Notes under the pieces: generated by a model
Database searches by the model: none
Seen by the model: only the letters and a program-made list of their open reading frames with translations
What the model was told of the DNA's origin: nothing
Assembly (NCBI RefSeq): GCF_001314225.1
Contig: NZ_CP012697.1
Location: 1,612,001-1,676,000 of the forward strand
DNA: 64,000 bases
From: Microbacterium sp. No. 7
GTDB lineage: Bacteria; Actinomycetota; Actinomycetes; Actinomycetales; Microbacteriaceae
Reading direction: 5' to 3'
Position numbers and translations under genes: made by a program
Part shown: piece by piece, positions 36,238 to 56,807 of the stretch
How positions within the stretch are numbered: the stretch's first letter is position 1
How the letters are laid out: each line of letters begins with the position of its first letter

Positions 36238-36259
36238 TAGTGTGTGATAATCGTTCTCA
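36238..36259 (+). promoter_or_regulatory. Promoter with Fur-family-type box over the start site
   Basis: A -10 TAGTGT (36238-36243) is followed after 1 nt by TGATAATCGTTCTCA (36245-36259), a 7-1-7-type palindrome like Fur/Zur operators. The reverse complement of the box at 48444 differs at a single base. A bound repressor would cover the transcription start. Fur and Zur cannot be told apart by sequence alone. Confidence 0.7.
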
Positions 36260-36280
36260 ATTACGAGGTGAGGAGCGCCG

Positions 36281-39798: not shown

Positions 39799-39828
39799 AC
39801 CCGACCGAACCCTCCGAAAGGACCCGAC

Positions 39829-40482: not shown

Positions 40483-41230
40483 GCCGACGGCTCAGGTCGC
40501 GGCCCCCGCCGGCGTCGCCGCGCGGCGGGGGCTCGACCCGCGCAGCAAGATCCTGCTCGTGCTGCTCGTCAGCCTCGCCGTGATGAGCCCGGGCGGGCTG
40601 GTGTTCGTGCCGGCGGGCGTGCTGCTGGCGACGGGGCTCGCCGTGTCGGAGCGCGCCTGGTCGCGGGTCGTGGCCATCCCGCTCGCCGCGATCGCGATGT
40701 ACCTGCTCGGCTGGGTGCTTCCGCTCGTCTGGGCGAACCCGGTGGTCACGGTCGTCGCGATCGGCTGCGGCTACCTCATCCGCTTCGTGGCCGCGTTCGG
40801 CGTCGGCGCCCACCTCGTCGCGACGACGTCGCCGACGCAGCTCAGCGCCGCGCTCCGGGCCTGGCGCCTCCCGCGGGCCGTCTCGGTGACCCTCGCCGTG
40901 ATGCTCCGGTTCTTCCCGGTGGTCGCGGCCGAGTCCTCGGCCGTGCTGGATGCCATGCGGCTCCGCGGGCTCGCCGGGGCGACGGGCCTGGCGCGGCATC
41001 CGATCCTCAGCATGGAGCGGTTCACCGTGCCGATGATCGCCGCGAGCCTGCGCGCCAGCGAGGACCTGTCGGCCTCGGCGATCCTGCGGGGGCTCGGCTC
41101 GCGTCACGTTCCCGTGTCCCTCGACCCGCCCCGCTTCGGCGGGCGCGACCTGGCGCTGGTGCTCGCCCTGGCGGGTCTCGCGGCGGCCGGCGTGCTGCTG
41201 CCGAACCCTCTGACGCTGGTGATCGCATGA
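40475..41230 (+). CDS. ECF transporter T component (EcfT)
   Basis: 251 residues with about five membrane helices and the EcfT signature arginine motifs: RLPRAVSVTLAVMLRFFPVV around residue 130 and ASEDLSASAILRGLGSRH, the coupling helices that hold the ATPases. A TTG at 40475, overlapping the S gene stop, gives LPEPTAQ as the N-terminus; the ATG at 40358 lies deep inside the S gene and would add an unlikely 39 residues. The ATPase gene ATG overlaps the stop. Confidence 0.85.
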   Translation: MPEPTAQVAAPAGVAARRGLDPRSKILLVLLVSLAVMSPGGLVFVPAGVLLATGLAVSERAWSRVVAIPLAAIAMYLLGWVLPLVWANPVVTVVAIGCGYLIRFVAAFGVGAHLVATTSPTQLSAALRAWRLPRAVSVTLAVMLRFFPVVAAESSAVLDAMRLRGLAGATGLARHPILSMERFTVPMIAASLRASEDLSASAILRGLGSRHVPVSLDPPRFGGRDLALVLALAGLAAAGVLLPNPLTLVIA

Positions 41231-42714
41231 TCGAGATCTCGAGCGTCACCTGGACCTACCCGCACGCCGGCGCCCCGGCGCTGCGCGATCTCGACCTGCG
41301 GATCGAGCCCGGCCAGTTCGTCGTCCTGTGCGGTGCCTCCGGGTCGGGCAAGTCCACCGCGTTGCGGCTGATGAACGGGCTCGTGCCGCACTTCCACGAC
41401 GACGGGGTGCTCGCCGGCTCCGTCACGGTCGACGGCATCGTCACGGCGGACGTCGAGCTCGACGCCCTCGGCCTGGTGAGCGGCACGGTGCTCCAGCATC
41501 CGCGACGGCAGTTCTTCACCGACTCCGCGCGCGAGGAGACGGCGTTCGCGATGGAGAACTTCGGGTTCCCGCGCGAGGAGATCCGCGCGCGCGTCGAGGA
41601 CAGGGTCGCCGAGCTCGCCCGCTGGGTGCCGGTGGGCCAGCGCCTGCAGCACCTGTCCGGCGGACAGCAGCAGCAGGTCGCGATCGCCGCCGCGACCGCG
41701 CACGATCCGCGCATCCTGCTGCTGGACGAGCCGAGCTCGAACCTGTCCGCCGACGCCGTGCACCGGCTGACCGCCGCCCTCGCAGAGCTCAAGGCGGCGG
41801 GCATGACGATCGTCGTCGCCGAGCACCGGCTCCGCTACCTGCAGGACCTGATCGACCGGGTCGTGGTCATGCGGGACGGGGCCATCGACATCGAGTGGAG
41901 CGCGGCGCGGTTCCGCGCCATCCCCGACGAACTGCTCGCCGAGGAGGGCCTTCGCGGCGAGATCCGCTCGCCCGAGGTGCCGGTCCTCGCCGCCACGGGA
42001 GGGAGCGTCGCCCATCCGCACCGGGTCGGGGACGTCCCCGCCGGGGCGCTGCAGCTGGAGGGCGTCCGCTGCCGGCTCGGCGGGCGCACGGTGCTCGACC
42101 TCGAGCGCGTGGTGTTCGCCGCGGGCGAGGTGACCGCGATCCGGGGCGTCAACGGGGCGGGCAAGTCCACTCTCGCCCGCGTCGTCACCGGCCTGCAGCG
42201 CGCGACGGGCACGGTGCGGCTGGACGGGAGGGTCCTCGGCCGCAAGGCGCGGCAGCGGGCCAGCGCCATCGTGATGCAGGACGTCCAGCGCCAGCTGTTC
42301 ACGGAGAGCGTCGAGGCCGAGATCGAGCTCGCCGGCTCCGGTGCCGTCGCGCTCCCCGACACGGCCGCGGTCCTCGATGCGCTGGACCTGGCGCCGCTGG
42401 CCGAGCGGCACCCGCTGTCGCTGTCCGGAGGGCAGCAGCAGCGGCTCGTCGTCGCGGCCGTGCGCGTCGCCGGCCGGCGCATCGTCGTGTTCGACGAGCC
42501 CAGCTCCGGCGTCGACCGCCGGCACCTGGGGTCGATCTCCGACCAGATCCGCCGGGTCGCCGCCGACGGCGCCGTCGTGCTGCTGATCAGCCACGACGAC
42601 GACCTGCTCGCCCTCGCCGCCGACCGGCAGCTCACGCTGACCGCGGTCGCCGCGCACTCCGCGGAACAGGCCGGCGTGCTCGTCCCGGACCGATCGTCGA
42701 AGGAGCCCCGATGA
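41227..42714 (+). CDS. ECF transporter A component with two fused ATPase domains
   Basis: 495 residues holding both ATPases in one chain. Domain 1: GASGSGKSTALRLMNG, HLSGGQQQQVAIAAATA, LLLDEPSSNLSADAV. Domain 2 (from about residue 280): GVNGAGKSTLARVVTG, SLSGGQQQRLVVAAVRV, VVFDEPSSGVDRRHL. Q-loops are present (LQHPRRQFFTDSAREE; MQDVQRQLFTESVEAE). Duplicated EcfA/CbiO proteins like this normally work with one T and one S component, exactly the neighbours here. Confidence 0.9.
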   Translation: MIEISSVTWTYPHAGAPALRDLDLRIEPGQFVVLCGASGSGKSTALRLMNGLVPHFHDDGVLAGSVTVDGIVTADVELDALGLVSGTVLQHPRRQFFTDSAREETAFAMENFGFPREEIRARVEDRVAELARWVPVGQRLQHLSGGQQQQVAIAAATAHDPRILLLDEPSSNLSADAVHRLTAALAELKAAGMTIVVAEHRLRYLQDLIDRVVVMRDGAIDIEWSAARFRAIPDELLAEEGLRGEIRSPEVPVLAATGGSVAHPHRVGDVPAGALQLEGVRCRLGGRTVLDLERVVFAAGEVTAIRGVNGAGKSTLARVVTGLQRATGTVRLDGRVLGRKARQRASAIVMQDVQRQLFTESVEAEIELAGSGAVALPDTAAVLDALDLAPLAERHPLSLSGGQQQRLVVAAVRVAGRRIVVFDEPSSGVDRRHLGSISDQIRRVAADGAVVLLISHDDDLLALAADRQLTLTAVAAHSAEQAGVLVPDRSSKEPR

Positions 42715-43964
42715 CCGGGCCGACACACGGAACGGCGCCCGGGGCGCCGTCGTCCCCGCCGCAGATCGCCCTGCTGCTCGGCGCGGTGTTCCTCGTCTAC
42801 CTGGGGCAGATGACGCTGAACCCGATCATCGCGCCGCTGTCGCGCGAGGTGGGGCTGGCCGAGTGGCAGATCGGCGTGACCATCAGCACCGCAGCGGTCG
42901 TGCTCGTGCTCACGAGCCAGTTCTGGGGCCGCCGCTCCCAGTCCTGGGGCCGCAAGCCCGTGCTCGTCGCCGCCTTCACCCTCGCCGCGATCACGATGGC
43001 GCTGTTCGCGCTCGTCTCCCACCTCGGCATGATCGGGCTCCTCACCGGAACCGGGCTGTTCGCGCTGTTCGTGCTGCTGCGCGGCGTCGGCTTCGGCTCC
43101 GCGATCGCGGCCGTCCCTCCCACCGCGCAGGCCTACATCGCGGATGTCACCGACGACGAGGCCACCCGGGTCAAGGGCATGGCGGGCATCGGCGCCGTCT
43201 CCGGCATCGCCATGATCGCCGGCGCCGTCGTCGGCGGCGTGCTCGCCGTCGGCGGCCTCATCGTGCCGCTCATCGCCGTTCCCATGCTCCTGTTCGCCGG
43301 GCTCGTGCTGATCGCGGTCCGGCTGCGCCGCGAGCCCCGGCACGAGCTCATCGAGCGGCCGGCCCGGGTGAGCCCGTTCGACGCGCGGGTGTGGCCGTTC
43401 CTGCTCGCCGGGTTCGGCATGTTCACCGCGCTGGGCTTCATCCAGGTCATCACCGGCTTCATCGTCCAGGACCGCCTGGGGCTCGACGCGCGCATGACCG
43501 GCGTCCTCACCGGCGCCGCCCTGTTCGCGGCCGGCGTCGGACTCGTGGTCGCGCAGGCCGTCATCGTGCCGCGCAGCGGCTGGTCGGCCCCGACCCTGCT
43601 CAAGGTCGGGGCGCCGATCGCCGTCGCCGGCTTCGCCGTCTACGCCGTCGACGGCGGGCCCGTGCTGCTGTTCGCGGCGCTCGTGGTCATGGGGCTGGGC
43701 CTGGGGATCGCGATGCCCGGCTACACCGCCGGCCCCACGCTCCTGGTGCGCCGCGAGGAACAGGGCGGGCTGGCGGGGCTCACGACCGCGACCACCGGCC
43801 TGACGTTCGTCGTCGCCCCGACCCTCAGCACCGCGCTGTACGGCGTGTGGGCGCCGCTGCCGATCATCATCGGCGGCGTCATCATGGCGATCGTCGCGGT
43901 GTTCGTGCTGGCCCATCCGCGATTCCGGCGCCCGCCCGCGCCTCCCGCCGACGCCGGAGCCTAG
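42711..43964 (+). CDS. MFS transporter
   Basis: 417 residues, about twelve membrane helices, with the MFS loop 2-3 motif GRRSQSWGRKPVLVAAF and RGVGFGSAIAAVPPTAQAYI. It most resembles drug:H+ antiporters of 12 helices. The ATG overlaps the ECF ATPase stop, so it belongs to the metal-box operon; export of a siderophore or of the imported ligand is a reasonable guess. It ends 10 nt from the convergent TetR gene. Confidence 0.87.
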   Translation: MTGPTHGTAPGAPSSPPQIALLLGAVFLVYLGQMTLNPIIAPLSREVGLAEWQIGVTISTAAVVLVLTSQFWGRRSQSWGRKPVLVAAFTLAAITMALFALVSHLGMIGLLTGTGLFALFVLLRGVGFGSAIAAVPPTAQAYIADVTDDEATRVKGMAGIGAVSGIAMIAGAVVGGVLAVGGLIVPLIAVPMLLFAGLVLIAVRLRREPRHELIERPARVSPFDARVWPFLLAGFGMFTALGFIQVITGFIVQDRLGLDARMTGVLTGAALFAAGVGLVVAQAVIVPRSGWSAPTLLKVGAPIAVAGFAVYAVDGGPVLLFAALVVMGLGLGIAMPGYTAGPTLLVRREEQGGLAGLTTATTGLTFVVAPTLSTALYGVWAPLPIIIGGVIMAIVAVFVLAHPRFRRPPAPPADAGA

Positions 43965-43974
43965 CGTCGTCTGC

Positions 43975-44709
43975 TCAGCCCTGCCGCGCGCGGCGCGCGG
44001 CCAGGGCGTCGAGGCTGAGCACGGCGCGATCGACCAGGCGCTCGAAGAGCTCGTCGCTGGTGCTGTCGGGCAGGTCGGCCGCCGCCCGCGAGCGGGGGGC
44101 GTCGATCTCGGGGTGCGCGTCCAGCCATCCCCGGGGCACCGGGTCCTGCATCGAGCGGCGCTCTCTCGCATCGGCGCGGTCGTAGCGGTGGTCGATCATG
44201 AGGGCGAAGCCGAAGACGTCGCCGAGGAACTGCGCGCGCCATGCCAGCGCGTCGGGCAGGCTCAGGCCGACGTCGGTGAGGAACGCGAGCAGCCGCTCCG
44301 GCAGGAGGACGCGCTCCGGCGGCACCTCGACGGGAGTGACGGTCTCGTCGAGCGAGAACAGCAGCGCCCGGCCCATCCTGCGGTAGGCCTCGCGCGTGTC
44401 GTGATAGAGCGCCCGCACGCTCGTCTCCCGGTCGGCGGCGTCGAGACGGCGCTGCGGGTGCAGCTCCATGATGCGCGCCGCGACGAGATCGACGACGTCC
44501 TGCCGGTCCGCGACGTGGTTGTAGAGGGCGCGCACGGTGACGCCGAGCCGCTCGGCAAGGCTGCGCATGGTGAGCGCGGGGAACCCGCGATCGGCGGCGA
44601 GGCCCAGGGCGGCCTCCGCGATGGACGCGCGGGTGACCGGCGGCACAGGGCCGTCGAGCCTCGGGCGGCCGGGGCGCCGGGGGCGGTCGCTGTTCTCGTT
44701 CTCGTCCAC
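43975..44709 (-). CDS. TetR-family regulator
   Basis: 244 residues. HTH: ASIAEAALGLAADRGFPALT, MRSLAERLGVTVRALYNHVA with DRQDVVDLV. The C-terminal domain is TetR_C-like. The GTG start is 6 nt from a TAGCGT -10 on the same strand, so it is leaderless. It is divergent from the giant fused exporter gene and probably controls it. The N-terminus is rich in Arg/Pro/Asp, which may add DNA contacts. Confidence 0.86.
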   Translation of the reverse strand: MDENENSDRPRRPGRPRLDGPVPPVTRASIAEAALGLAADRGFPALTMRSLAERLGVTVRALYNHVADRQDVVDLVAARIMELHPQRRLDAADRETSVRALYHDTREAYRRMGRALLFSLDETVTPVEVPPERVLLPERLLAFLTDVGLSLPDALAWRAQFLGDVFGFALMIDHRYDRADARERRSMQDPVPRGWLDAHPEIDAPRSRAAADLPDSTSDELFERLVDRAVLSLDALAARRARQG

Positions 44710-44715
44710 GGCTCC

Positions 44716-44779
44716 ACGCTATCGTTCCCTGGCGTTTATTACATGCTCTGTTGATTTATTGGACCGGCGTCCCTATCGT
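44716..44779. promoter_or_regulatory. Divergent leaderless promoters of TetR and fused exporter
   Basis: On the minus strand TAGCGT (44721-44716) ends 6 nt before the TetR GTG; on the plus strand TATCGT (44774-44779) ends 7 nt before the exporter GTG. Between them lies A+T-rich sequence with two TTTATT direct repeats (44735-44740 and 44755-44760), a candidate TetR site. Confidence 0.5.
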
Positions 44780-44786
44780 GATTTAG

Positions 44787-47700
44787 GTGACCCTTACTCC
44801 TCTCGACGAGAAGACCTCTCCGCTCGGCGACGCCCCGGCGGGCGAGCGTCTCACGGTCGGCGCCGTCGTCTCCCGCCATCGGCGCGGCCTGATCCTGTCG
44901 GCCGTGTTCGCGATCGTGGCGGGCGTGTGCTCGCTGGCGCCCTACGTCGCTGTCTACGCGGTGACGGTCGCACTGTTCGACCCCGACGGCGGGGGAGCGG
45001 ACGCGATCGGATGGATCGCCGGGGCGACCGCGGCGGCGATCGTGGTGCGGGCCGTGGCCTCGGGCCTGTCGACGCACGCCGGACACGTCGCCGCGTACCG
45101 TGTGCTCGCCGATCTGCGACGGGCGATCGCCCGCACCCTGCAGCGGCTGCCGCTCGGCCGCGTGCAGGCGCGCTCGGCGGGGGAGATGAAGAAGCTGCTG
45201 CACGACGACGTGGAGCAGCTGGAGGAGGCGCTCGCGCACGGCGTGCCCGACATGGCGGCGGCCGCGGCGGTGCCCGTGGCGACGACGGCGCTGCTGTTCG
45301 CGGTGGACTGGCGCCTCGCGCTGGTCGCCCTGGGATCGCTCGCGCTGCTGGTGCTGGTGTCGGCGGTGGGCGTGAGAGCGGCGATGCCGGGCAACAGGCT
45401 GCTCGCCGCGCACACGAGCGTGCTCAACCGGGCGGTACTCGGCTACCTGCAGGGGATCAAGGTGATCCGCGGCTTCCTGCGGCCCGACTCCGGCTACGAC
45501 CAGGCCCGGGACGCCATCGTCGCCTCCGGGGAGCTGAGCGCCCGCGTCACCGCCGGACCGCTGCGGTGGCTGGTCGCCACGATGTCGGCCGCGACCGGGC
45601 TCGCGGTCGCCCTGCTGATCCCCGTGGCCGGCGTGTGGTTCGCCGACGGCGCGATCGGGCTGCCGACCCTCGCGCTGTTCCTGCTCGTCGGGCTGGCCTA
45701 CCTGTCTCCCGTCATCGGGCTGGTGGGGACGATCGCGACGATCATGGCGCGCATCCAGTTCTCGGCCGGCTCGATCCGCGAGATCCTCGCCGAGCCGGTG
45801 CTGCCCGAGCCGGTGCGCCCGCGGGAGCCCGAGCGGTTCGACGTCGCCTTCGACCGGGTCTCCTTCGCCTACGGAGAGGATGCCGGCCCCGTGCTGTCCG
45901 ACCTGACCCTGCGCATCCCCGAGGGCGCGCGGTTCGCGCTGGTCGGCCCGACCGGTGCCGGGAAGTCCACGGTCGCCCGGCTGGTCGCCCGGTTCTGGGA
46001 CGTCGCCGCGGGCGCGGTCTCGATCGGCGGCGTCGACGTGCGCGACATCCCCCAGGCGGCGCTGGCCCGGCTGGTCGCGTTCGTCCAGCAGGACGAGTAC
46101 CTCTTCGCCGCGAGCCTGCGGGAGAACATCCGCATCGCCCGCCCGGGGGCGACCGACGCCGAGGTCGAGGCCGCCGGTCGCGCCGCCCAGCTGGACGAGC
46201 TGGCGGCCGATCTCCCGCACGGCTGGGACACCGAGCTCCCGGGCGGGGGCGGGACGCTGTCCGGCGGGCAGCGTCAGCGCGTCTCCATCGCCCGCGCCCT
46301 GCTCAAGGACGCTCCGGTGATCGTGCTGGACGAGGCCACGGCATCGCTCGACGCCGAGACCGAGCGGGCGACGCTCGCCGCGATCGCCGAGCTGACCGCC
46401 GGCCGCACGGTCATCGCCATCGCCCATCGGCTGGCGACGATCCGGAGCGCCGAGCGGATCGCCTTCCTCGAGCGCGGCGTGCTCGAGGCCGAGGGCACGC
46501 ACGACGAGCTCCTCGCCGCGAGCGACGGCTACGCCCGGCTCTGGGCGGCCTACACCAGCGCGACCGGCTGGCATCTGGATCGCGACGCGGGCGCGCCCCT
46601 CGTCCCGATCCCGGGACCCGCACCGCACCCCGCCGCCGTCGACGAACGCGACGCCGCGGCGCGGGCGATCGTCACGCCCGGCCTCGGTGCGCTCGGCTTC
46701 GGCCGGCAGTGGATCAGGCTCCTCGGCCGCGGCCGGCCCGCCCTGCTGCGCCGCGGACTGCCCAGGCTGCTGCTGGAGGGACTCGTGCGCGGGATCCCGC
46801 TCGTGGCGGTGTTCCTGATCCTGAACGCCGCGATCGCCTTCGTCTCGGGCGGCGCGGCCCTCGAGGCGCGCCTCGTCTGGATCGTCACCGGCATCCTCGT
46901 CGCGGGGCTCGTGCTGCGGCTGCTGGTCGCGCAGTGGGCCAACCGCACGGTGTGGTCCATCGCGGCGGCGTCCAAGACCGACCTGCAGCTGTCCGTCGTC
47001 GAGCGGCTGCGCCGCGTGCCCCTCGGCTTCTTCTCCCGCATCGACAACGGGCGCGTCACGACCCTCATCGGCAACGACATCGTCATGATCGACTTCCAGA
47101 ACGTGCCGCAGCAGATCGCGGGCGCCCTCGTCCAGCCGATCTACGTCACGATCGCCCTGCTCGTGATCGACGCGCGCCTGGCCCTCGCCGCCCTCATCGG
47201 GCTGCCGGTCTTCTGGGCGATCACAGCACTGAGCGACCGCGTCTACCACCGCGTGTTCACCGACGTGCACGCCGCCCGCCGCGAGGCGACCACGATCCTC
47301 CTCGAGCAGGCGAGGGGAGCGGCGGTGCTGCGCGGCAACCCCGCATCCTTCATCGCGAGCCGCTTCGAGCACGCGGTCGCCCGGCTCGAACGGGCGAGCG
47401 TCGACATGTCCGTGCGGGCGACCCCCGCGATCGGGCTCGGCGCGATCGCCATCGAGTCCGGCCTCGTCGCCCTCATCGTCGCCGGCGGCGCCCTGTACGC
47501 CGGTGGCGCGGTGCCCGCCACGACGCTGCTGCTGTTCCTCCTGCTGTCCCTCACGCTCTACCAGCCCATCCAGGAGCTCGGCGTGCTCGCCGGCTACCGT
47601 CACAACCAGGAGCAGATCGCGCAGAAGATCGCCGAGGTCTGGGACGCGCCCGTCCTGCCCGAGCCCGCCCGCCCCGCGACGCCCGCGGACGCCTCGGTCG

Positions 47701-48374
47701 AGTTCTGCGACGTGACCTTCGGCTACGACGACGCGGATGACGCCGACGGCCGCGGCCCGGTGCTCCGCGGCGTCTCGTTCCGCGTCGAGCCCGGCGCGAT
47801 CGCCGCCCTCGTCGGCCCCTCGGGATCGGGCAAGTCCACGATCGCGAACCTCGCCGCCAGACTGTGGGACCCCGACGCCGGCTCGGTCCGCATCGGCGGC
47901 CGAGATCTGCGCGATCTCGGCACCGACACGGTCATGCGCATGGTCACGACCGTGTACCAGGACGTCTACCTCTTCCACGACACGATCCGCTTCAACGTCG
48001 CCATCGGGCGCCCGGGCGCGACCGACGACGAGGTCTGGGGCGCCCTCGCCGCGGCGCAGATCGACGACGAGGTGCGCGTTCTGCCGAACGGGCTCGACAC
48101 CGTCGTCGACGACGGCGGCACGAACCTCTCCGGCGGGCAGCGCCAGCGGATCTCCATCGCCCGCGCCCTCCTGAAGGACGCGCCCATCGTGATCCTCGAC
48201 GAGGCCGTCGCCAGCGTCGACCCCGACACCGAGGCGCGCATCCAGGACGCCATCGGCCGGCTCGCCGCGGGCCGCACCGTGCTCGTCGTCGCCCATCGGC
48301 TCGACACCGTCCGCGACGTCGACCAGATCCTCACCGTGGCGGGCGGGACCGTCGCCGGTGCGGTCCCGCGGTGA
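44787..48374 (+). CDS. Two ABC exporter half-transporters fused into one 1195-residue protein
   Basis: Residues 1-590 form one complete membrane-plus-ATPase unit (Walker A GPTGAGKSTVARLV, signature TLSGGQRQRVSIARALL, Walker B VIVLDEATASLDAETE). A Pro/Ala linker (about 600-620) leads to a second unit (Walker A GPSGSGKSTIANLA, signature NLSGGQRQRISIARALL, Walker B IVILDEAVASVDPDTE, Asp-Glu intact). The halves resemble the IrtA- and IrtB-like proteins upstream respectively. The second Walker B has Val after DEA where Thr is usual. Both nucleotide sites look functional. The frame is open without stops, so this is a real fusion. GTG start, leaderless. Confidence 0.9.
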   Translation: MTLTPLDEKTSPLGDAPAGERLTVGAVVSRHRRGLILSAVFAIVAGVCSLAPYVAVYAVTVALFDPDGGGADAIGWIAGATAAAIVVRAVASGLSTHAGHVAAYRVLADLRRAIARTLQRLPLGRVQARSAGEMKKLLHDDVEQLEEALAHGVPDMAAAAAVPVATTALLFAVDWRLALVALGSLALLVLVSAVGVRAAMPGNRLLAAHTSVLNRAVLGYLQGIKVIRGFLRPDSGYDQARDAIVASGELSARVTAGPLRWLVATMSAATGLAVALLIPVAGVWFADGAIGLPTLALFLLVGLAYLSPVIGLVGTIATIMARIQFSAGSIREILAEPVLPEPVRPREPERFDVAFDRVSFAYGEDAGPVLSDLTLRIPEGARFALVGPTGAGKSTVARLVARFWDVAAGAVSIGGVDVRDIPQAALARLVAFVQQDEYLFAASLRENIRIARPGATDAEVEAAGRAAQLDELAADLPHGWDTELPGGGGTLSGGQRQRVSIARALLKDAPVIVLDEATASLDAETERATLAAIAELTAGRTVIAIAHRLATIRSAERIAFLERGVLEAEGTHDELLAASDGYARLWAAYTSATGWHLDRDAGAPLVPIPGPAPHPAAVDERDAAARAIVTPGLGALGFGRQWIRLLGRGRPALLRRGLPRLLLEGLVRGIPLVAVFLILNAAIAFVSGGAALEARLVWIVTGILVAGLVLRLLVAQWANRTVWSIAAASKTDLQLSVVERLRRVPLGFFSRIDNGRVTTLIGNDIVMIDFQNVPQQIAGALVQPIYVTIALLVIDARLALAALIGLPVFWAITALSDRVYHRVFTDVHAARREATTILLEQARGAAVLRGNPASFIASRFEHAVARLERASVDMSVRATPAIGLGAIAIESGLVALIVAGGALYAGGAVPATTLLLFLLLSLTLYQPIQELGVLAGYRHNQEQIAQKIAEVWDAPVLPEPARPATPADASVEFCDVTFGYDDADDADGRGPVLRGVSFRVEPGAIAALVGPSGSGKSTIANLAARLWDPDAGSVRIGGRDLRDLGTDTVMRMVTTVYQDVYLFHDTIRFNVAIGRPGATDDEVWGALAAAQIDDEVRVLPNGLDTVVDDGGTNLSGGQRQRISIARALLKDAPIVILDEAVASVDPDTEARIQDAIGRLAAGRTVLVVAHRLDTVRDVDQILTVAGGTVAGAVPR

Positions 48375-50609: not shown

Positions 50610-51395
50610 TCAGTAGTGCTGCCCGTGCCGGTAGTCCCACGTCGGGAACTGTGCGGCGAGGTTGGCGACGATGCGATCCTGAGCGAGCCCGCCGCGGATC
50701 ACCGTCGGGGCGGGGGAGACGCCGCGGGCACCGCGCTGCTCGGGCACGAGCTCGCCGTCGCCGTCCACGAAGGAGACCATGACGCCCTGCTCGTACCGGC
50801 TGCCCGTGTCGGGCTGGACCGAGCGCACGTAGTCGTCGGCCTCGATGACGAGATCGACGCCTCGGGCGATGCGCTCGCCGATGCCGTCGACGCGGCCGCG
50901 ATTGCCCTGTCCCGATGGGTTCGCCGAGCTCGCGAAGAGGACGGTGTGATCGCGGTCCCACAGTGCGCGTGCGATCCGTTCGCCGGGCTCGCCGAAGCGC
51001 ACGACGAAGCAGCTCGTCGCGCGGTCGTCCATGACGAGCTCCTCGGCCCCCGGCGGGATGTGGGCGCGACCGTGCCGCGTCCACGGCAGGATGCAGCCGA
51101 GCAGCACGTCCTGCCGCCAGTGCGTGCGGTAGAAGCCCTCGACCTCGTCGCTGAGCTCGGCGAGCGTGACGAGCTGGTCGAGCGAGCCGCAGAGGACGAC
51201 GCCCGGCTTTCGACGCGGGCGGCGTTTGACCTCGAACTTGCGCTCGAGGCCGGCGGCGTCGACGGCGACGATGACGTAGCCGACCTTCGTGGGGCTGACG
51301 ACGAGCCCGCCTCCGGATCGGAGCAGCTCGACGGCCTCGTGCTGCAGGCCGCCGTTCCAGCGGACGGTCGGGGCGGATGCGGTCGTGTTCGGCAT
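50610..51395 (-). CDS. Sua5/YciO/YrdC-type protein
   Basis: 261 residues. The YrdC fold is shown by GGGLVVSPTKVGYVIVAVD, the basic nucleotide-binding block KFEVKRRPRRKPGVVL, HIPPGAEELVMD and FASSANPSGQGNRGRVDGI. TsaC proteins of this fold make threonylcarbamoyl-AMP, but this protein is longer (about 60 extra C-terminal residues ending FPTWDYRHGQHY) and sits third in an iron-box operon, so it is probably a paralogue with another substrate. Gap to the upstream gene is 72 nt with GAGGAA before the ATG. Confidence 0.78.
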   Translation of the reverse strand: MPNTTASAPTVRWNGGLQHEAVELLRSGGGLVVSPTKVGYVIVAVDAAGLERKFEVKRRPRRKPGVVLCGSLDQLVTLAELSDEVEGFYRTHWRQDVLLGCILPWTRHGRAHIPPGAEELVMDDRATSCFVVRFGEPGERIARALWDRDHTVLFASSANPSGQGNRGRVDGIGERIARGVDLVIEADDYVRSVQPDTGSRYEQGVMVSFVDGDGELVPEQRGARGVSPAPTVIRGGLAQDRIVANLAAQFPTWDYRHGQHY

Positions 51396-51467
51396 GAGGT
51401 TCCTCCGGGTCTGTGCGGCGGATCCCGCGGGACGCCGCGGATGGCGGCCTCCCGCGGGATCTCGCGT

Positions 51468-52301
51468 TCAGGCAGGGTTGATGACCCGGCCCCAGGTGGA
51501 CTTGTTCCCCCAGATGTTCTGCCGCAGTCCCTCGAGCTGGAGGATCTGCGAGTGGTCGACGAAGAGGTTGACCTCGTTGCCGTAGTTCTTGACGTACCAC
51601 TCGAACACGGGACCGTCTGCGGCCTCGAACATGACGTTCTCGAGACCGACCCCGTTGATGATGGCCGCCGCCGCACCCGTGTTCCACTCGGTGACGTTCT
51701 CGGTGATGCCCTCCGACTCGATCATGATGATGTCGGCACCGGCCTCCAGCGCCTGCTGCGCCCGGTCGACGAGGTCGCCGACGTCCTTCTTCGTCTCGGC
51801 CGCCAGCTCGGCCTCGCCGGAGTCGCCGCCGGAGCCGATCTGGATGCCCAGCTCCGGCTTGGCCTTGAGGCCCGCCTTGACGACCTTGTCGACGAGCCGC
51901 AGCAGGCCCGACGTGGGGAGCATGATGAACCCGGTCGAGATCTCGATGACGTCGAAGCCGACCTCCTTCGCCTCCTTCAGGTACTGGTCGACGGCATCCG
52001 GGCCGTAGCGCAGCACCGTCTCGATCCAGCCGCCCGACGACACGTACGCGCCGTTCTCGTGCGCGATGTCGCTGAAGGCCCGCACCTGCTCGGGCGGGAC
52101 GAGCGAGAACGACCCGCCCGCCCATTTGATGCCGTCGACCCAGTTGCCGGCGACATCGAAGACGTCCTGCAGGTGGCGCGTGCCGAACGTGGCGTAGTAG
52201 GGCGCGCGGATCTCGGTGATCCCGAACCGGCGCGGCTTCTCCGGCCGATGGGCGCGGGGGACGAAGTTGAACGCGGTGTCGAAGGGGATGGCGTTGCTCA
52301 T
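51468..52301 (-). CDS. Phosphosulfolactate-synthase (ComA)-like protein
   Basis: 277 residues. TIM-barrel motifs of the ComA family are clear: GITEIRAPYYATFGTRHLQD, DGIKWAGGSFSLVPPEQVRA, YVSSGGWIETVLRYGPDAVD, VIEISTGFIMLPTSG and ADIIMIESEGITENV. ComA adds sulfite to phosphoenolpyruvate in coenzyme M synthesis; no other coenzyme M or sulfolactate gene is visible here, so the natural reaction may differ. AAAAGGAG precedes the ATG. It lies second in the operon between a PrpD-type and a YrdC-type protein. Confidence 0.82.
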   Translation of the reverse strand: MSNAIPFDTAFNFVPRAHRPEKPRRFGITEIRAPYYATFGTRHLQDVFDVAGNWVDGIKWAGGSFSLVPPEQVRAFSDIAHENGAYVSSGGWIETVLRYGPDAVDQYLKEAKEVGFDVIEISTGFIMLPTSGLLRLVDKVVKAGLKAKPELGIQIGSGGDSGEAELAAETKKDVGDLVDRAQQALEAGADIIMIESEGITENVTEWNTGAAAAIINGVGLENVMFEAADGPVFEWYVKNYGNEVNLFVDHSQILQLEGLRQNIWGNKSTWGRVINPA

Positions 52302-52345
52302 GGTGTTTCTCCTTTTCCTCTGGGTCTCGTGCGCGTGCCGGTGTG

Positions 52346-53722
52346 TCACGCGCGTGTGCGGCTGACGCGGGCGAGAGCGCTCGTGAGCTCGGCGACCGTG
52401 CGATTCTCGAGATCCGCGACGATCGCGGCGATCTCATTGCGCAGCTCGGGCGTCGTGAACGGCGTTGCGAGCGCGTCGAACTTGCGCCGGGCGCCGTCCC
52501 AGCCGAGCGGGTCGTCGTGGAATCCTTCGTAGGAGCTCTGCACCGAGCGCAGCACGGTGCCGTCCTCGAGCACGACCTCGAGCTCGGCGGGCATCTCGTC
52601 GGGGAAGCGCGCGGAGAAGCCGTCGTCGGGCGTGATCTCGACCTTCGCCATCAGCGCCTGCACGTCGTCGGCGACGATGCGCGCGGGCGCGTACTGGGCG
52701 GGGGTGAGCTCGCCGTCCAGCAGGACGACGGCCAGCATCCAGGGCAGCGAGTGGTCGGCCTCCTCCTTCGTGCGCACCGTGCGCTTGTCCCCCTCCTCGC
52801 CGCCGCCGATGATCGAGAAGGCGACGTCGAAGGTGCGCAGCCGCACGCTCGCGATCGAGGAGGCGGCGAAGCCCGTCTGGGAGCGGACGTGCTGCGCGGC
52901 GTCCAACGCCGACTGCGAGTGGATCTCGGCGTTGTGCTTCTTGACGATCGAGCGCCGCACCCGTTCGAGGTCCTCCGTCTGCCAGTCGATCTCGAAGGGA
53001 CCCGCGATCGCGTCCTTGAAGCCCTTGTTGCCCTCGAAGACCTCCTCGGGCCCGGTGATGCCCCGTGCCGCGAGGAGCGCCGCGAAGGTGCCCTCCTTCG
53101 AGACCTGCGGGTAGGCGAGGCCCTTCCAGTGCGACAGGTTGCCGGTGCGTGTCACGCGCAGGGCGTTGTTGGCCGTGCCCGAGATCGAGATCGCGTTCGC
53201 AATCTGCGTCGCGGGCAGCCGCAGCGCCTTGGCCGCCGCGGCGGCGGCCGCATAGGCGCCCTGCGTCGTGTGGTCGAAGCCGCGGGCGCGGACCGGTGCC
53301 ACGTCGGACAGGCGCGCGTGCACCTGATAGGCGACGGCGAACGCCGTCAGCAGCTCGCGCCCGTCGGCGTTCACGGACTCCGCGGCGGCCAGCACCGCCC
53401 CGAAGTTGTCGGAGGGGTGGTTGGTCTCGCCCTTGGCGAGGTAGGAGTCCATGAAGTCGAGGTAGCGGCTCAGGGCGCTGTTGTAGAAGGCGGCGCGGTC
53501 GGGCGCGGTCTTGCCGCCGCCGATCAGCGTGGCCGCCGGCGCGCCCCCGAGATCGTCGATCAGCTCTCTGATGGCGACGACGGGTTCGGCGTCGAGGGCG
53601 CCGATCGCGACCCCGATCGTGTCGAGGACGCGGATCTTCAGCTGTTCGAGCGCCGTGGCGCTGAGATCCTCGAAGGCGGCGGCCGCGACGAAGGCGGCCA
53701 GACGAGAGACTTCCGTGCTCAT
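52346..53722 (-). CDS. MmgE/PrpD-family dehydratase
   Basis: 458 residues. Family motifs: RVLDTIGVAIGAL, AAFYNSALSRYLDFMDSYLA, GETNHPSDNFGAVLAAAESV, HTTQGAYAAAAAAAKALRLP and IHSQSALDAAQH. PrpD-type proteins are iron-sulfur-free 2-methylcitrate dehydratases, and relatives act on citrate or cis-aconitate. No prpB or prpC is present, so a propionate pathway is not supported. First gene of the operon; GGAAAGGAC before the ATG; a near-perfect DtxR box lies 35 nt upstream. Confidence 0.87.
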   Translation of the reverse strand: MSTEVSRLAAFVAAAAFEDLSATALEQLKIRVLDTIGVAIGALDAEPVVAIRELIDDLGGAPAATLIGGGKTAPDRAAFYNSALSRYLDFMDSYLAKGETNHPSDNFGAVLAAAESVNADGRELLTAFAVAYQVHARLSDVAPVRARGFDHTTQGAYAAAAAAAKALRLPATQIANAISISGTANNALRVTRTGNLSHWKGLAYPQVSKEGTFAALLAARGITGPEEVFEGNKGFKDAIAGPFEIDWQTEDLERVRRSIVKKHNAEIHSQSALDAAQHVRSQTGFAASSIASVRLRTFDVAFSIIGGGEEGDKRTVRTKEEADHSLPWMLAVVLLDGELTPAQYAPARIVADDVQALMAKVEITPDDGFSARFPDEMPAELEVVLEDGTVLRSVQSSYEGFHDDPLGWDGARRKFDALATPFTTPELRNEIAAIVADLENRTVAELTSALARVSRTRA

Positions 53723-53756
53723 GAGAGCGTCCTTTCCAGAGAGAGAACGCGATCGC

Positions 53757-53775
53757 TTAGGTAAGGCTTGCCTAA
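53757..53775. promoter_or_regulatory. DtxR/IdeR-type iron box, near-consensus
   Basis: TTAGGTAAGGCTTGCCTAA matches TWAGGTWAGSCTWACCTWA at 18 of 19 positions, the best box in the window. It lies 35 nt before the PrpD-type gene on the minus strand and 53 nt past the end of the flavoprotein gene, so it should control the PrpD-ComA-YrdC operon. Confidence 0.88.
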
Positions 53776-53792: not shown

Positions 53793-53816
53793 ATTTATCT
53801 CGATGTCAAGATAAAT
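53793..53816. other. A+T-rich hairpin after the flavoprotein gene
   Basis: ATTTATC (53793-53799) pairs with GATAAAT (53810-53816) around a 10-nt loop. It lies 12 nt past the flavoprotein stop; it may be a weak terminator or part of the upstream region of the PrpD operon. Confidence 0.35.
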
Positions 53817-53827: not shown

Positions 53828-55597
53828 TCACTCGGCAAGCTTGCCGACGGGGGAGTCGTCGATCTGCGTTCGCGCGAGCTCGCGGAACGAGTCGGGCGCC
53901 TCGCCGACCGGCTCGAAGACGACGCCGGCGGCGGGCGACCACACCATGCTTCCGCGCAGCTCGTCGCGCTGCTCGGGGTGGTCGGAGCGGTTGTGGCATC
54001 CGCGGGTCTCACGTCGTTCCCGCGCGCATTCGAGCGTCGCGCGCGCCGCGAGCAGTGACCCGTAGAGGTCGAAGGCGTGCGCGAGGTCGTCGAAGCCCGC
54101 GATGTCGGGATGTGCCGTGAGGTTCGCGACGCGGCTCTCCAGCTCGTCGAGCTTCGCCAGCCCCTCGCTGAGCCCCTGCTCGCTGCGCACGACGCCCGCG
54201 TGCTCGGTCATGAGGTCGCGCAGGCTGCGCTGGAGCAGGCGCGGGCTCTCCTCGCCGCCGCCGGTGAGCAGACCCTGCATCTCGGCCCGCGCCTCCGCGA
54301 CCGCCGCGGGGTCGCGTCGCAGCCCCGTGAGGCCCCGCACGTACTCGGCGGCGTCGCCGCCCGTGAGCCTGCCGTACACGAGCAGCTCGATGAGCGAGTT
54401 GCCGCCGAGCCGGTTCGCGCCGTGCAGGCCGCTCGCGGCCTCGCCGATCGCGTAGAGCCCGTCGACGCCCGTGCCGTGCGTCTCGGGACTCACCCAGACC
54501 CCGCCCATCGAGTAGTGCGCGGTGGGCGCGACCTCGATCGGCTGCTTCGTGATGTCGAGCATCTGCAGGTCGATGAGCGTGCGGTAGACGCGCGGCAGCT
54601 TGGCGAGGATCTGCTCGCGCGGGAGGTGCGAGACGTCGAGATAGACGCCGCCCTTCTCGGTGCCCCGGCCCTCTGCGATCTCGGTGTAGTTGGCGAGGGC
54701 GACGCGGTCGCGCGTCGACAGCTCCCGGCGCTCGGGGTCGTAGCGCTCCATGAAGCGCTCGCCGAGCGCGTTGCGCAGCACGCCGCCCTCGCCCCGCGCC
54801 GCCTCGGACACCAGCGTGCCCGCGGCGTCGGAGGGCTCGAGCAGGCCGGAGGGGTGGAACTGCACCAGCTCGGCGTCGCGGATCCGCGCTCCCGCGAGCG
54901 CCGCGAGCCGGAACGAGTCGCCGGTGTTCTCGTCGCGGCGCGACGATGTGTGCCGCCAGATGCGGTTGTGGCCGCCCGCGGCGAGGATCACCGCGTCGGC
55001 GTGGATGACCACGGGCGTGCCGTCGACGATGTCGAAGCCGTACGCGCCGAAGATGCGCCCGTCGCTGACCAGCAGGCGCGTGACGTAGACCGTGTCGACG
55101 ATCGGCACCTGCAGCTCCTGCGCCCGCCGCAGCAGCGTGCGCTGGATCTCCAGCCCCGTGTAGTCGCCCGCGTAGCACGTGCGCCGGTAGAGGTGCGCGC
55201 CGAAGAAGCGCTGGCTGAGGCGTCCGTCGGCCTCCCGGGCGAAGGGCATGCCCCAGCGCTCGAGGTCCTCGATGCCCTGCGCCGCGTTCTTCGCGACGAT
55301 CTCGACGATGCGCGGGTCGGCCAGGAAGTACGACTCGCGCAGCGTGTCGGCGGCGTGCTGCTGCCAGCTGTCCTCGGGGTCCATGGTGCCGAGGGCCGCG
55401 TTGATCCCGCCCGCGGCGAGCGAGGTGTGCGCGTCGTGCTTGCGCCGCTTTCCGACCGCGAGCACCTGCACCCCGCGCTCGGCGAGCTCGATGGAGGCGC
55501 GGAGCCCCGCGCCTCCCGTGCCGACGACGAGGACGGACGTGGAGATCAGGCGTTCGTGCGTGGTGCTGTGGGGCGCGGTGCTGTGGGGTGCGTTCAT
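53828..55597 (-). CDS. FrdA/SdhA/L-aspartate-oxidase-type flavoprotein, unpaired
   Basis: 589 residues. FAD motif SVLVVGTGGAGLRASIELAE, SLAAGGINAALGTMDPEDSW (histidine-flavin region replaced by T/S-LAAGG), VILAAGGHNRIWRHTSS, AELVQFHPSG, GEGGVLRNALGERFM, TAHYSMGGVWV and GLHGANRLGGNSLIELLVYG, with active-site Arg in GCHNRSDHPEQRDE. It is a complete dicarboxylate-oxidoreductase flavoprotein, but no iron-sulfur or membrane subunit gene is nearby. The N-terminus repeats APHST. ATG is 7 nt from a TACCGT -10 (leaderless) and divergent from LysR. Confidence 0.87.
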   Translation of the reverse strand: MNAPHSTAPHSTTHERLISTSVLVVGTGGAGLRASIELAERGVQVLAVGKRRKHDAHTSLAAGGINAALGTMDPEDSWQQHAADTLRESYFLADPRIVEIVAKNAAQGIEDLERWGMPFAREADGRLSQRFFGAHLYRRTCYAGDYTGLEIQRTLLRRAQELQVPIVDTVYVTRLLVSDGRIFGAYGFDIVDGTPVVIHADAVILAAGGHNRIWRHTSSRRDENTGDSFRLAALAGARIRDAELVQFHPSGLLEPSDAAGTLVSEAARGEGGVLRNALGERFMERYDPERRELSTRDRVALANYTEIAEGRGTEKGGVYLDVSHLPREQILAKLPRVYRTLIDLQMLDITKQPIEVAPTAHYSMGGVWVSPETHGTGVDGLYAIGEAASGLHGANRLGGNSLIELLVYGRLTGGDAAEYVRGLTGLRRDPAAVAEARAEMQGLLTGGGEESPRLLQRSLRDLMTEHAGVVRSEQGLSEGLAKLDELESRVANLTAHPDIAGFDDLAHAFDLYGSLLAARATLECARERRETRGCHNRSDHPEQRDELRGSMVWSPAAGVVFEPVGEAPDSFRELARTQIDDSPVGKLAE

Positions 55598-55604
55598 GCG
55601 CACA

Positions 55605-55668
55605 ACGGTAGGTACGCCTCGATGATTACTCCAATGAATAGTGTCGATCAAGACGATACGTCTACGCT
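55605..55668. promoter_or_regulatory. Divergent leaderless promoters of flavoprotein and LysR genes
   Basis: Minus strand: TACCGT (55610-55605) ends 7 nt before the flavoprotein ATG. Plus strand: TACGCT (55663-55668) ends 6 nt before the LysR ATG. The A+T-rich stretch between (ATGATTACTCCAATGAATAG) holds candidate LysR sites. Confidence 0.55.
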
Positions 55669-55674
55669 ATCGAC

Positions 55675-56622
55675 ATGAACCTCGAACAGCTGCGAGGGTT
55701 CGTCGAGGTCGCGCAGACGAGCCACTTCACCCGCGCCGCCGAGCGGCTGCACGTCGCCCAGCCGACGCTCAGCAGACAGGTCGCGACGCTCGAGTCCGAG
55801 CTCGGCGTCGACCTCTTCCACCGCACGCGCGGCAACGTCGCCCTCACGGCGGCGGGGGAGCGCCTGCTGCCGCTCGCGCGCCGCATGCTCACGGATGCCG
55901 AGACGGCGCGCAGCGAGATGGCGGAGCTCGCCGGCCTGCAGCGCGGCCGCGTGCGACTGGGAGCGACCCCCACCCTGTGCACGAGCCTGGTCGCCGAGGT
56001 GCTCGCCGAGTTCCACGAGCGGCATCCCGGCATCCACATCGAGATCCTCGAGCGCGGCTCGCGCAGCCTCATCGAGGCGCTCGTCGACGGCGCCCTCGAC
56101 CTCGCGCTCATCGTGACGAGCGTGTCGTCGGGCGCCGCCCGTGCCGTGCTCGAGCGCGAGCCGGTGCTGAGCGAACGCCTCGTCGTGGTCTCGTCGGCGG
56201 CGCAGCCCGACCCGTTCGCCGGCCAGGACGCCGTCACCCTGCGCCGGCTCGCCGCGACCCCGCAGATCGTCTTTCCGGAGAACTACGATCTGCGGGTCGC
56301 CGTCGACGCCGCCCTCGCGCGTGCGGAGCTGACGCCCGCGATCGCCGTCGAGGGGGCGGAGATGGATGCCGCGCTGCGCTTCGCCGAGCGCGGCCTCGGC
56401 GTCGCGGTCGTGCCGGCGATGGTCGCCGTCGACCGCCCCGCCCTGCGCGTCGCGCCCCTGGCCGACCCCTCGCTCGCCCGCACGGTCAGCGTCGCGCGCC
56501 GCACCGACATGGCCCCGACCCACGCGGGTGCGGCGCTGCGCGCCCTCATCCGCGAGGTCGCCGACCGCCTCGCCGTGCCCGGCACCGAGACCTCGCGCCT
56601 CGTGAGCCGCGTCGCGGGCTGA
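55675..56622 (+). CDS. LysR-family regulator
   Basis: 315 residues. N-terminal HTH is canonical: MNLEQLRGFVEVAQTSHFTR, AAERLHVAQPTLSRQVATLE, LGVDLFHRTRGNVALTAAGE. The C-terminal substrate domain has RVRLGATPTLCTSLVAEVLA. Divergent orientation strongly suggests control of the neighbouring flavoprotein gene; the inducer is unknown, a dicarboxylate or aspartate-like molecule is plausible. Confidence 0.92.
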   Translation: MNLEQLRGFVEVAQTSHFTRAAERLHVAQPTLSRQVATLESELGVDLFHRTRGNVALTAAGERLLPLARRMLTDAETARSEMAELAGLQRGRVRLGATPTLCTSLVAEVLAEFHERHPGIHIEILERGSRSLIEALVDGALDLALIVTSVSSGAARAVLEREPVLSERLVVVSSAAQPDPFAGQDAVTLRRLAATPQIVFPENYDLRVAVDAALARAELTPAIAVEGAEMDAALRFAERGLGVAVVPAMVAVDRPALRVAPLADPSLARTVSVARRTDMAPTHAGAALRALIREVADRLAVPGTETSRLVSRVAG

Positions 56623-56636: not shown

Positions 56637-56785
56637 CCCCGCGAGGGTGCTGGTTGTCCCCGCGAGGGTGCTGGTTGTTTTCGCGAGGGTGTTGGTTGTA
56701 CCCGCGAGGGTGCCAGTCATGTTCCCGCGGGAGCACCCTCGCGAACGCAAGTGGCACCCTCGCGGGAACATGTGGCACCCTCGCG
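56637..56785. repeat. 21-bp tandem repeat with inverted second half
   Basis: Four forward 21-bp units (starts 56637, 56658, 56679, 56700; the first two identical, CCCCGCGAGGGTGCTGGTTG plus T) are followed by three inverted units with the same 21-bp period (GCACCCTCGCG at 56733, 56754, 56775). The shared core is CGCGAGGGTG. The whole block can fold on itself between converging genes, so it may act as a terminator. There are no unique spacers. Confidence 0.88.
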
Positions 56786-56807
56786 AGCGGTGTCGGGCGG
56801 CGGGGTG

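Follow-up and report, generated by a model that had tools for sequence, protein, structure and literature searches.

A PrpD- and ComA-type gene pair behind a predicted iron box and an aconitase operator: a candidate iron-sparing aconitase module in Microbacterium sp. No. 7

The 64,000-nucleotide stretch of DNA that we analysed (the window) contains three ORFs on the minus strand, separated by short gaps, that code for PrpD-like, ComA-like and YrdC-like proteins (Table 1). Pfam searches identified the N and C domains of MmgE_PrpD in the first protein (244.8 and 145.8 bits), ComA in the second (245.7 bits) and Sua5_yciO_yrdC in the third (44.8 bits). The ORFs, these matches and the iron box described below bear out the three-gene, minus-strand operon behind a DtxR box proposed in a first-pass annotation. 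A sigma-70 scan gave no promoter at the scan threshold, and no Rfam match was found. FrdA-type flavoproteins similar to that of the neighbouring gene have matches in 17 of 39 genomes (E ≤ 1e-150). As they are linked to the PrpD/ComA pair only in the window and in 2 of the 80 loci that we compared, we rejected the flavoprotein as a part of the system.

Table 1. Genes and predicted regulatory sites of the PrpD/ComA locus (positions in the window)
Feature	Position	Strand	Description
YrdC-like accessory gene	50610..51395	-	261 aa; Pfam Sua5_yciO_yrdC
ComA-like gene (TIM-barrel protein)	51468..52301	-	277 aa, ATG start; Pfam ComA, NCBIfam, residues, structure model
PrpD-like gene (MmgE/PrpD family)	52346..53722	-	458 aa; Pfam MmgE_PrpD N and C domains, active-site residues, predicted fold
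DtxR/IdeR-type iron box	53757..53775	.	TTAGGTAAGGCTTGCCTAA on the plus strand
Second operator (palindrome)	53797..53812	-	ATCTTGACATCGAGAT; 16 bp, contains TTGACA; just upstream of the DtxR box
FrdA/NadB-type flavoprotein gene	53828..55651	-	Neighbour, outside the core
LysR gene	55675..56622		Divergent from the FrdA/NadB-type flavoprotein gene

The PrpD-like protein can be assigned to the MmgE/PrpD superfamily by its two Pfam domains and its predicted active site, as its D92, H102, H151 and K200 do not vary among 17 homologues and line up with the D, H, H and K of E. coli PrpD. It also matches the kinds of the first four (D, H, H, K) of the seven bsIRG1 residues D91, H102, H151, K200, K266, C271 and Y146 (PMC7347537). 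Its predicted fold is nearest to those of cis-aconitate decarboxylase (CAD)/IRG1 and PrpD/MmgE; fold searches confirmed the families without separating dehydratases from decarboxylases. Despite the common superfamily and active-site residues, the protein differs from 2-methylcitrate dehydratase PrpD/MmgE in that it falls far under the curated PrpD equivalog cut-offs (134.8 vs 950, 119.7 vs 575 and 100 vs 458 bits), is paired with a ComA-like protein, and has no prpB, prpC or acnD gene beside it among the ORFs scanned. E. coli PrpD is described as promiscuous, with activity on citrate and cis-aconitate (PMC9468356). We propose that the PrpD-like protein is an iron-free citrate (aconitate-forming) dehydratase.

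The ComA-like protein shares its family and fold with the phosphosulfolactate synthases of Methanocaldococcus jannaschii (MjComA; PDB 1qwg, the best match of its structure model, TM 0.75) and Xanthobacter (XcbB1). Nevertheless, it scores 70.2 bits against NCBIfam arch_ComA, for a cut-off of 280. The Lys pair of the EVGKK motif and the Arg of EGRESG have a catalytic role in ComA. These residues (K136, K137 and the EGRESG Arg of MjComA) are kept in XcbB1 but replaced in 23/23 core ComA-like sequences; here they correspond to I153/Q154 and E197, and the pocket has gained acidic residues (E197) and lost basic ones. A set of 39 genomes carrying a ComA-like gene, made up of the source genome and the genomes of 38 of the 80 loci (some with a ComA-like gene but no PrpD), gave no ComB-family match in 27. 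The other 12 include the source genome (32.6 bits, family cut-off 26.4). The PrpD partner is a further difference from the known synthases. The missed cut-off and the substitutions indicate that the protein is probably not a canonical phosphosulfolactate synthase. The YrdC-like protein falls into a separate subfamily together with S. mutans SMU.1377c (PDB 3l7v), its nearest solved relative, and lies under the TIGR00057 cut-off of threonylcarbamoyl-AMP synthase (TsaC/Sua5; 51.9 vs 123.2 bits). YrdC proteins are makers of adenylates.

The iron box, whose end is about 35 bp from the PrpD ATG, has no mismatch to TTAGGNNAGNCTNNCCTAA, and the window contains 3 sites with at most three mismatches where 0.07 were expected. 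The match at 18 of 19 positions reported earlier holds against the degenerate consensus TWAGGTWAGSCTWACCTWA. Upstream of PrpD, a DtxR-type box is present in 22 of 48 actinobacterial loci at ≥12/14 positions and in 27 at ≥11/14, but in none of 17 non-actinobacterial loci. Only 0.04% of shuffled sequences score ≥12; the background gene set kept the divergent neighbours that share the PrpD intergenic region, and these make up 8 of its 9 matches at ≥12/14. This conserved promoter box predicts that the operon is a member of the DtxR/IdeR regulon and supports the iron control suggested in the first-pass annotation.

The second putative operator lies outside the range which that annotation described. 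Allowing one mismatch, the palindrome occurs at three places in the 4.83-Mb genome, before the PrpD operon, acnA and icd (the icd copy has one mismatch), and a reversed control pattern has no site in the whole genome. The acnA and PrpD-operon copies have 25 bp in common, ATTTATCTTGACATCGAGATAAATC. Thus, the operon appears to share an operator with the aconitase gene of the same genome. At ≥13 of its 14 specified positions, the palindrome precedes PrpD in 27/48 actinobacterial loci, 0/17 non-actinobacterial loci and 0/765 background genes (best 11), the last set excluding divergent genes that share their intergenic region with PrpD. Among the palindrome sites examined, 12 of 30 actinobacterial genomes, the source genome included, have one at most 600 bp upstream of the AcnA match, a count drawn from 61 site rows after second-strand duplicates and most non-actinobacterial rows were dropped. 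None of 25 site rows from non-actinobacterial genomes is near a PF00330 match. Genomes of the same genus sampled without the module carry the palindrome upstream of acnA in 5 of 5 cases.

A different motif was found in Corynebacterium. Four of eight loci have the AcnR-type motif CAGNACNNNCGTACTG at 12/12 positions upstream of PrpD, for a background maximum of 10 in 98 genes. The motif precedes acn in the four corynebacterial genomes that were read (12, 12, 11 and 11 of 12 positions); its presence before both acn and PrpD was seen in one genome only, L033, and L019, L037 and L083 have it before acn and not before PrpD. The four PrpD loci with the motif are close relatives in the tree, which was built without nine ComA fragments or near-duplicates (L048, L051, L053, L065, L066 and L079 to L082), and the motif was probably gained there in one event.

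Co-occurrence of the genes beyond the source genome was established for PrpD and ComA and in part only for YrdC. Using a strict rule, the PrpD-like and ComA-like pair was identified in 62 of the 80 loci, which range over actinobacteria, alphaproteobacteria, Salinibacter and haloarchaea. YrdC lies within 10 kb in 6/80 loci. Of 48 genomes with a ComA-like gene (the source genome and those of 47 of the 80 loci, some without PrpD), 13 have a YrdC-like gene, the source genome among them. When 396 Actinomycetota genomes were sampled and the best six first-look candidates of each were scored, the source genome was the single one with such a gene. On plasmids, no common partner was found in the YrdC contexts. 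The three-gene unit described earlier is therefore better seen as a two-gene PrpD/ComA core with an optional YrdC gene, which is a recurring accessory of the module. Clustering the ORFs of the 80 loci detected no constant biosynthetic or transport partner.

Other neighbours give clues to function. The TcuA tricarballylate dehydrogenase is encoded in a row with ComA-like proteins in L076 to L078 (519, 549 and 546 bits, cut-off 369), and a distant ComA-like protein (25%) is found beside PrpD, PrpF and a tricarboxylate-binding protein. TcuA and the PrpD and PrpF proteins next to these distant ComA-like proteins are aconitate enzymes. Mevalonate-pathway genes directly follow ComA in L022, L026 and L030, whose genomes also have IspH. 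We counted all these observations in favour of the aconitase function proposed below.

Few steps of central metabolism are as sensitive to iron and oxidants as aconitase, and we know of no described aconitase that lacks a [4Fe-4S] cluster. With moderate confidence, we consider that the operon provides the TCA cycle with an iron-sparing branch, an Fe-S-free route from citrate to isocitrate under iron starvation. Slightly better than even, in our judgement, are the chances of the broader proposal that PrpD and a ComA-type 'aconitate hydratase' form a widespread two-protein aconitase without an Fe-S cluster, which would belong to both the iron and the acn/icd regulons and replace a core TCA-cycle enzyme by non-orthologous proteins. 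Both proposals build on sequence data, namely the conservation of the module, the iron boxes, the operators shared with acnA and icd, the loss of phosphosulfolactate synthase residues and the retention of the PrpD active site. From these we infer the identity of the regulators, the substrates, the hydration step and its product. The first-pass annotation had mentioned in passing that PrpD might take over from an iron-dependent aconitase, and this remark is supported.

In the proposed mechanism, a drop in ferrous iron would release DtxR/IdeR from the iron box. Independently of that regulator, failure of the Fe-S aconitase would let citrate or aconitate climb, and the second operator would be freed by the protein that controls the aconitase operator, which would be MarR-like in most lineages and AcnR in some corynebacteria. 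Without need of an Fe-S cluster, PrpD would dehydrate citrate to cis-aconitate, and the ComA-like protein, a putative iron-free aconitate hydratase, would add water onto the activated double bond of aconitate to yield isocitrate for isocitrate dehydrogenase. The hydration would be Michael-type chemistry by analogy with ComA, which adds sulfite to PEP. Together, the two proteins would stand in for the [4Fe-4S] aconitase AcnA, with the same net reaction and, in the source genome and several relatives, the same promoter operator. They would differ from AcnA in being two proteins of unrelated fold that are expected to lack an Fe-S cluster, and in having an iron-starvation box. This would resemble known iron-sparing swaps, such as fumarase C for A or flavodoxin for ferredoxin, in which a cluster-free enzyme is induced at iron shortage. 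If correct, the proposal would explain how iron-starved bacteria continue to make 2-oxoglutarate and glutamate, and provide a function for a family labelled 'phosphosulfolactate synthase' in databases. Literature searches returned no Fe-S-free aconitase, in one case judged by title among 20 of 71 matches listed, and no PrpD-ComA pair. In line with the proposal, the RipA-regulated aconitase of C. glutamicum is reported to be slightly repressed at pH 6 with the iron-starvation response on, and citrate to accumulate (PMC2807442). A related known system is the TamR regulon of Streptomyces coelicolor, in which a MarR protein is described as the repressor of aconitase and further TCA genes, with citrate and trans-aconitate as its signals (review PMC5487221).

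Several observations count against the aconitase function. Neither operator was detected at the thresholds used in 12/48 actinobacterial and 17/17 non-actinobacterial loci. The acidic ComA-like pocket does not obviously suit a tricarboxylate, and in Brevibacterium the PrpD gene has a divergent neighbour for a TsuA-like thiosulfate transporter, which would suit a sulfur-related function. At E ≤ 1e-40, PrpD of the module's clade was not found in 10 of 11 genomes that have a ComA-like gene without an adjacent PrpD; the ComA-like enzyme is therefore able to work in its absence. A gene of the PF00330 aconitase family, which LeuC also matches, is retained in each of the 39 genomes searched; thus, the module was seen as the sole route in no genome, and we rejected it as a sole aconitase.

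The regulatory evidence would be identical if PrpD and the ComA-like protein drained the citrate or aconitate built up on aconitase failure, for instance to itaconate and a hydrate, or removed trans-aconitate, without making isocitrate. Such an overflow sink or repair system would be consistent with a PrpD model equally close to cis-aconitate decarboxylase/IRG1 and PrpD/MmgE, with ComA-like genes found without the module's PrpD, and with the TcuA and PrpF neighbours, which act on aconitates. Nevertheless, the pair has no constant exporter or downstream degradation gene around it, and the palindrome before icd in the source genome fits isocitrate supply; we regard this alternative as unlikely. 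Far less probable, in our view, is that the operators are shared by descent or chance and that the operon is unrelated to citrate. Operator sharing is indirect evidence, and the loci devoid of both motifs would be in line with this idea. However, two unrelated motifs, each found before acn in its own lineage, both precede the PrpD module, which argues against it, and the gene neighbours independently name aconitate enzymes.

The first-pass annotation had favoured a sulfonated metabolite or a metallophore, for which the iron box proved the sole positive support. The ComA residues are missing, the cut-off is missed and the 80 loci showed no constant partner. The Pfam family, the closeness to the 1qwg fold, the Brevibacterium TsuA-like gene and the ComB matches would agree with a genuine, sulfite-consuming phosphosulfolactate synthase whose product is the PrpD substrate. 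We nevertheless rejected this as the leading explanation on the residues, the NCBIfam cut-off and the ComB distribution, and deem it highly improbable. We also attach little credence to a metallophore, or a secreted chelator of acidic nature, built from citrate or aconitate, or from sulfite and aconitate, to which the DtxR-type box, the adenylate chemistry generally known for YrdC proteins and the iron-transport genes elsewhere in the window might point. The operators shared with acnA and icd indicate central metabolism instead, and no constant synthetase, exporter or receptor gene is found near the pair among the clustered ORFs and the loci inspected, nor in the annotated regions read on Methylosinus, Salinibacter and haloarchaeal plasmids. 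In the absence of a constant synthetase or transporter partner in the 80 loci, we rejected a metallophore cluster. The window transport genes have no relatives in these loci (E ≤ 1e-20 over half the length). The earlier mention of two metallophore-type transport systems within 17 kb was loosely right: an ECF-type transporter is encoded 8 kb from the operon, an ABC exporter with a weak iron box (36180) 12 kb away, and, at about 20 kb, a siderophore-interacting protein together with a binding protein.

The three genes of the operon follow one another with short gaps, and Pfam bears out the PrpD, ComA and YrdC family assignments of the first-pass annotation. Because none of the three proteins reached the NCBIfam curated cut-off of a named enzyme, they are, by sequence, to be regarded as family members and not as recognised equivalogs.

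Features of the operon and its surroundings (window positions)
Feature	Position	Strand	Basis or remark
Siderophore-interacting protein; C-terminal extension weakly matches O-methyltransferase dimerisation domain	28856-30634		
ABC exporter with weak DtxR box, ECF transporter (Trep_Strep, CbiQ, ABC), double ABC protein	36180-48374		Possibly a separate iron or metallophore transport region
YrdC-like protein, 261 aa	50610-51395, last gene of operon	minus	Pfam
ComA-like protein, 277 aa	middle gene of operon 53722 to 50610	minus	Pfam
PrpD-like protein, 458 aa	first gene of operon 53722 to 50610	minus	Pfam
DtxR-type box, perfect	53757-53775		
Palindrome, 16 bp	53797-53812		
FrdA/NadB-type flavoprotein and divergent LysR gene	53828-56622		
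Tandem 21-bp repeats of CGCGAGGGTGCTGGTTGT type, then opposite-orientation copies	56640-56790		Between LysR gene and next gene

Upstream of PrpD, a DtxR-type box matches at least 12 of 14 positions in 22 of the 48 actinobacterial PrpD loci and at least 11 in 27. A score of 12 is reached by 0.04% of shuffles and by 9 of 787 other genes. One of the nine is ferritin-like, and the other eight are divergent neighbours whose intergenic region is that of PrpD. None of the 17 non-actinobacterial PrpD loci has a box matching at least 11 positions.

A second operator, ATTTATCTTGACATCGAGATAAAT, stands upstream of the DtxR-type box at the PrpD promoter. Searching the whole genome with the pattern ATCTTGACNTCNAGAT, with at most one mismatch, returned three places, namely the operon and positions 2377829 and 979281 of contig C1, and the reversed pattern used as a control returned none. 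The palindrome at 2377829 precedes acnA, its end lying 113 bp from the start of the gene, and the fetched N-terminal part of that gene product matches NCBIfam AcnA. That at 979281, with one mismatch, precedes a gene for a monomeric NADP-isocitrate dehydrogenase (1184 bits vs a cut-off of 950) and is common to a divergent acetyltransferase-like gene; NADP-isocitrate dehydrogenase is also preceded by the palindrome in Glaciibacter and Leucobacter weissii. Over 44 genomes, the search gave 122 strand-wise matches vs 12 with the reversed control. In 12 of 30 actinobacterial genomes, Microbacterium sp. No. 7 included, the palindrome lies at most 600 bp upstream of an AcnA match; of its 25 sites in non-actinobacterial genomes, none is near an aconitase-family match. 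All five same-genus genomes checked that are devoid of the PrpD-ComA module carry the palindrome upstream of acnA, and three of them have one further site each. Ten further acn upstream stretches outside Corynebacterium yielded five two-mismatch sites, one one-mismatch site and four scores no better than 11/14. At PrpD itself, 13 or 14 of the 14 positions are matched in 27 of the 48 actinobacterial loci, the best score among 765 background genes being 11.

In Corynebacterium, CAGAACGCTCGTACTG or CAGGACGCTCGTACTG is found upstream of PrpD in four of eight loci (L033, L035, L036 and L047; L-numbers denote the loci compared here), which are close relatives and in which the palindrome is missing. 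These motifs match at 12 of 12 positions the operator of AcnR, which represses aconitase in C. glutamicum. Motifs of this type also occur upstream of acn in all four Corynebacterium genomes read (L033, L019, L037 and L083, with 12, 12, 11 and 11 matches, respectively). Of the four loci with the motif at PrpD, the acn reading covered L033, where both promoters carry it; in L019, L037 and L083 it is absent from the PrpD promoter, so that one genome was seen with the motif at both. As judged from promoter sequences, the module is predicted to be under the operator that the host group uses for aconitase in two lineages, which is the strongest argument here despite the single Corynebacterium genome with both promoters.

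In C. glutamicum at pH 6, with the iron-starvation response on, citrate accumulated and the RipA-regulated aconitase was slightly repressed (PMC2807442). In Streptomyces, aconitase is under repression by TamR, a MarR protein that lets go in response to citrate and trans-aconitate (PMC5487221). Joined with the two operators, these observations lead to an iron-sparing model, in which the PrpD-like protein would dehydrate citrate to aconitate and the ComA-like enzyme would rehydrate the latter to isocitrate, without Fe-S. That the module belongs to the citrate-isocitrate regulon is highly probable; from this membership we infer, with moderate confidence, that it would make isocitrate without iron. 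Searches of the open-access PMC subset, in one case among 20 of 71 listed titles, found no description of a PrpD-ComA pair or of an iron-independent aconitase.

In the PrpD-like protein, Asp92, His102, His151 and Lys200 are kept in 17 of 17 homologues, and in the alignment E. coli PrpD has D, H, H and K at these positions. For bsIRG1, PMC7347537 names residues of the same kinds, together with Y146, K266 and C271; our comparison covered the D/H/H/K kinds. Citrate and cis-aconitate are substrates acted on by E. coli PrpD (PMC9468356). The model of the PrpD-like protein (pLDDT 83) resembles CAD/IRG1 as closely as it does PrpD/MmgE, and that of the ComA-like protein (pLDDT 77) gave a TM of 0.75 against 1qwg. 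In ComA, the two Lys of EVGKK and the EGRESG Arg have a catalytic role. In 23 of 23 sequences from the ComA-like clade, they are replaced by Ile/Val plus Gln and by Glu, respectively, whereas XcbB1 retains both. For 27 of 39 genomes with the ComA-like gene, the search turned up no ComB.

The most distant well-aligned ComA-like proteins (L076, L077 and L078, 51-54% identity) are encoded in a row with TcuA, an FAD tricarballylate dehydrogenase, above the cut-off in all three. The product of Salmonella TcuA is cis-aconitate. These clusters look catabolic, and L077 adds an RraA-like aldolase, a hydroxy-oxovalerate aldolase, an acetaldehyde dehydrogenase and an aminoethylphosphonate-type ABC transporter. 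In Bradyrhizobium guangxiense, a 25% identical ComA-like gene forms one row with the genes for PrpD and for PrpF, a member of the methylaconitate isomerase family; a tricarboxylate-transporter binding protein adjoins them. Mevalonate-pathway genes directly follow ComA in L022, L026 and L030 (Leucobacter, Microbacterium marinilacus) and in L009, with family assignment run for L026 and similarity used for the others. Since neither of the Fe-S enzymes IspG and IspH is needed in the mevalonate pathway, these genes would fit an iron-sparing island. IspH is present in the genomes of L022, L026 and L030; the L009 genome, a metagenome bin, yielded no IspH.

A single genome-contig scan with the ComA-like protein as query listed 80 of 81 ComA-like loci. 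Under a strict rule, PrpD is directly upstream in 62 of these 80; 17 fail the rule, three of which (L006, L048 and L082) still have a PrpD match adjoining ComA, and one is too short for it. The search of relatives covered 97 other genomes, 58 of them from the same genus; it gave two weak matches (27-28% identity) and no close ComA-like gene, which makes horizontal acquisition of the operon probable. The ComA-like profile hits 23 of 396 sampled Actinomycetota genomes at E <= 1e-3 and nine, Microbacterium sp. No. 7 included, at E < 1e-100. Plasmid-borne pairs occur in Methylosinus, Methylocystis, Salinibacter and haloarchaea; annotated PrpD lies upstream within ~5 kb in nine of ten plasmid regions read, and the tenth has a partial PrpD match. 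Where the ComA-like gene is unpaired, 10 of 11 genomes are devoid of this PrpD clade. Among the 39 genomes checked for aconitase-family genes, none was found with the module as sole aconitase.

YrdC of the operon's subfamily was detected in one of the 396 sampled Actinomycetota genomes, Microbacterium sp. No. 7 itself (best six candidates per genome scored), and in 13 of 48 genomes having the ComA-like gene, again including this one. YrdC lies within 10 kb in 7 of 72 rows of the ComA tree; seven changes are needed on the tree, which means repeated gain or loss of the linkage. Gulosibacter chungangensis, whose PrpD frame looks shortened, and Rothia halotolerans have the gene order of the window. 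Together with PDB 3l7v, the operon's YrdC belongs to a distinct conserved subfamily of ~260 aa with 898 database relatives, for which no assigned function was found; the 120 relatives listed include Streptococcus, enterobacteria and rhizobia.

Seven Brevibacterium loci (L011, L013, L015, L016, L025, L034 and L048) have, at ~7.2-8.4 kb, a gene divergent from PrpD for a thiosulfate transporter of YeeE/TsuA-like type, so assigned by NCBIfam on L011 alone; the intergenic region common to both genes holds iron box and palindrome. A Brachybacterium ferritin-like gene (L028:15216-15737), 4.4 kb from ComA, has a 12/14 DtxR-type box. On a Caballeronia plasmid (L093, 5941-8587), a PrpD relative (41%) lies beside a phosphatidylserine-decarboxylase-family gene, with ferritin-like, hemerythrin and manganese catalase genes in the surroundings. 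Several genomes with the module encode an FrdA/NadB-type flavoprotein ~80% identical to that of the window, and in L005 and L028 its gene is also near PrpD-ComA.
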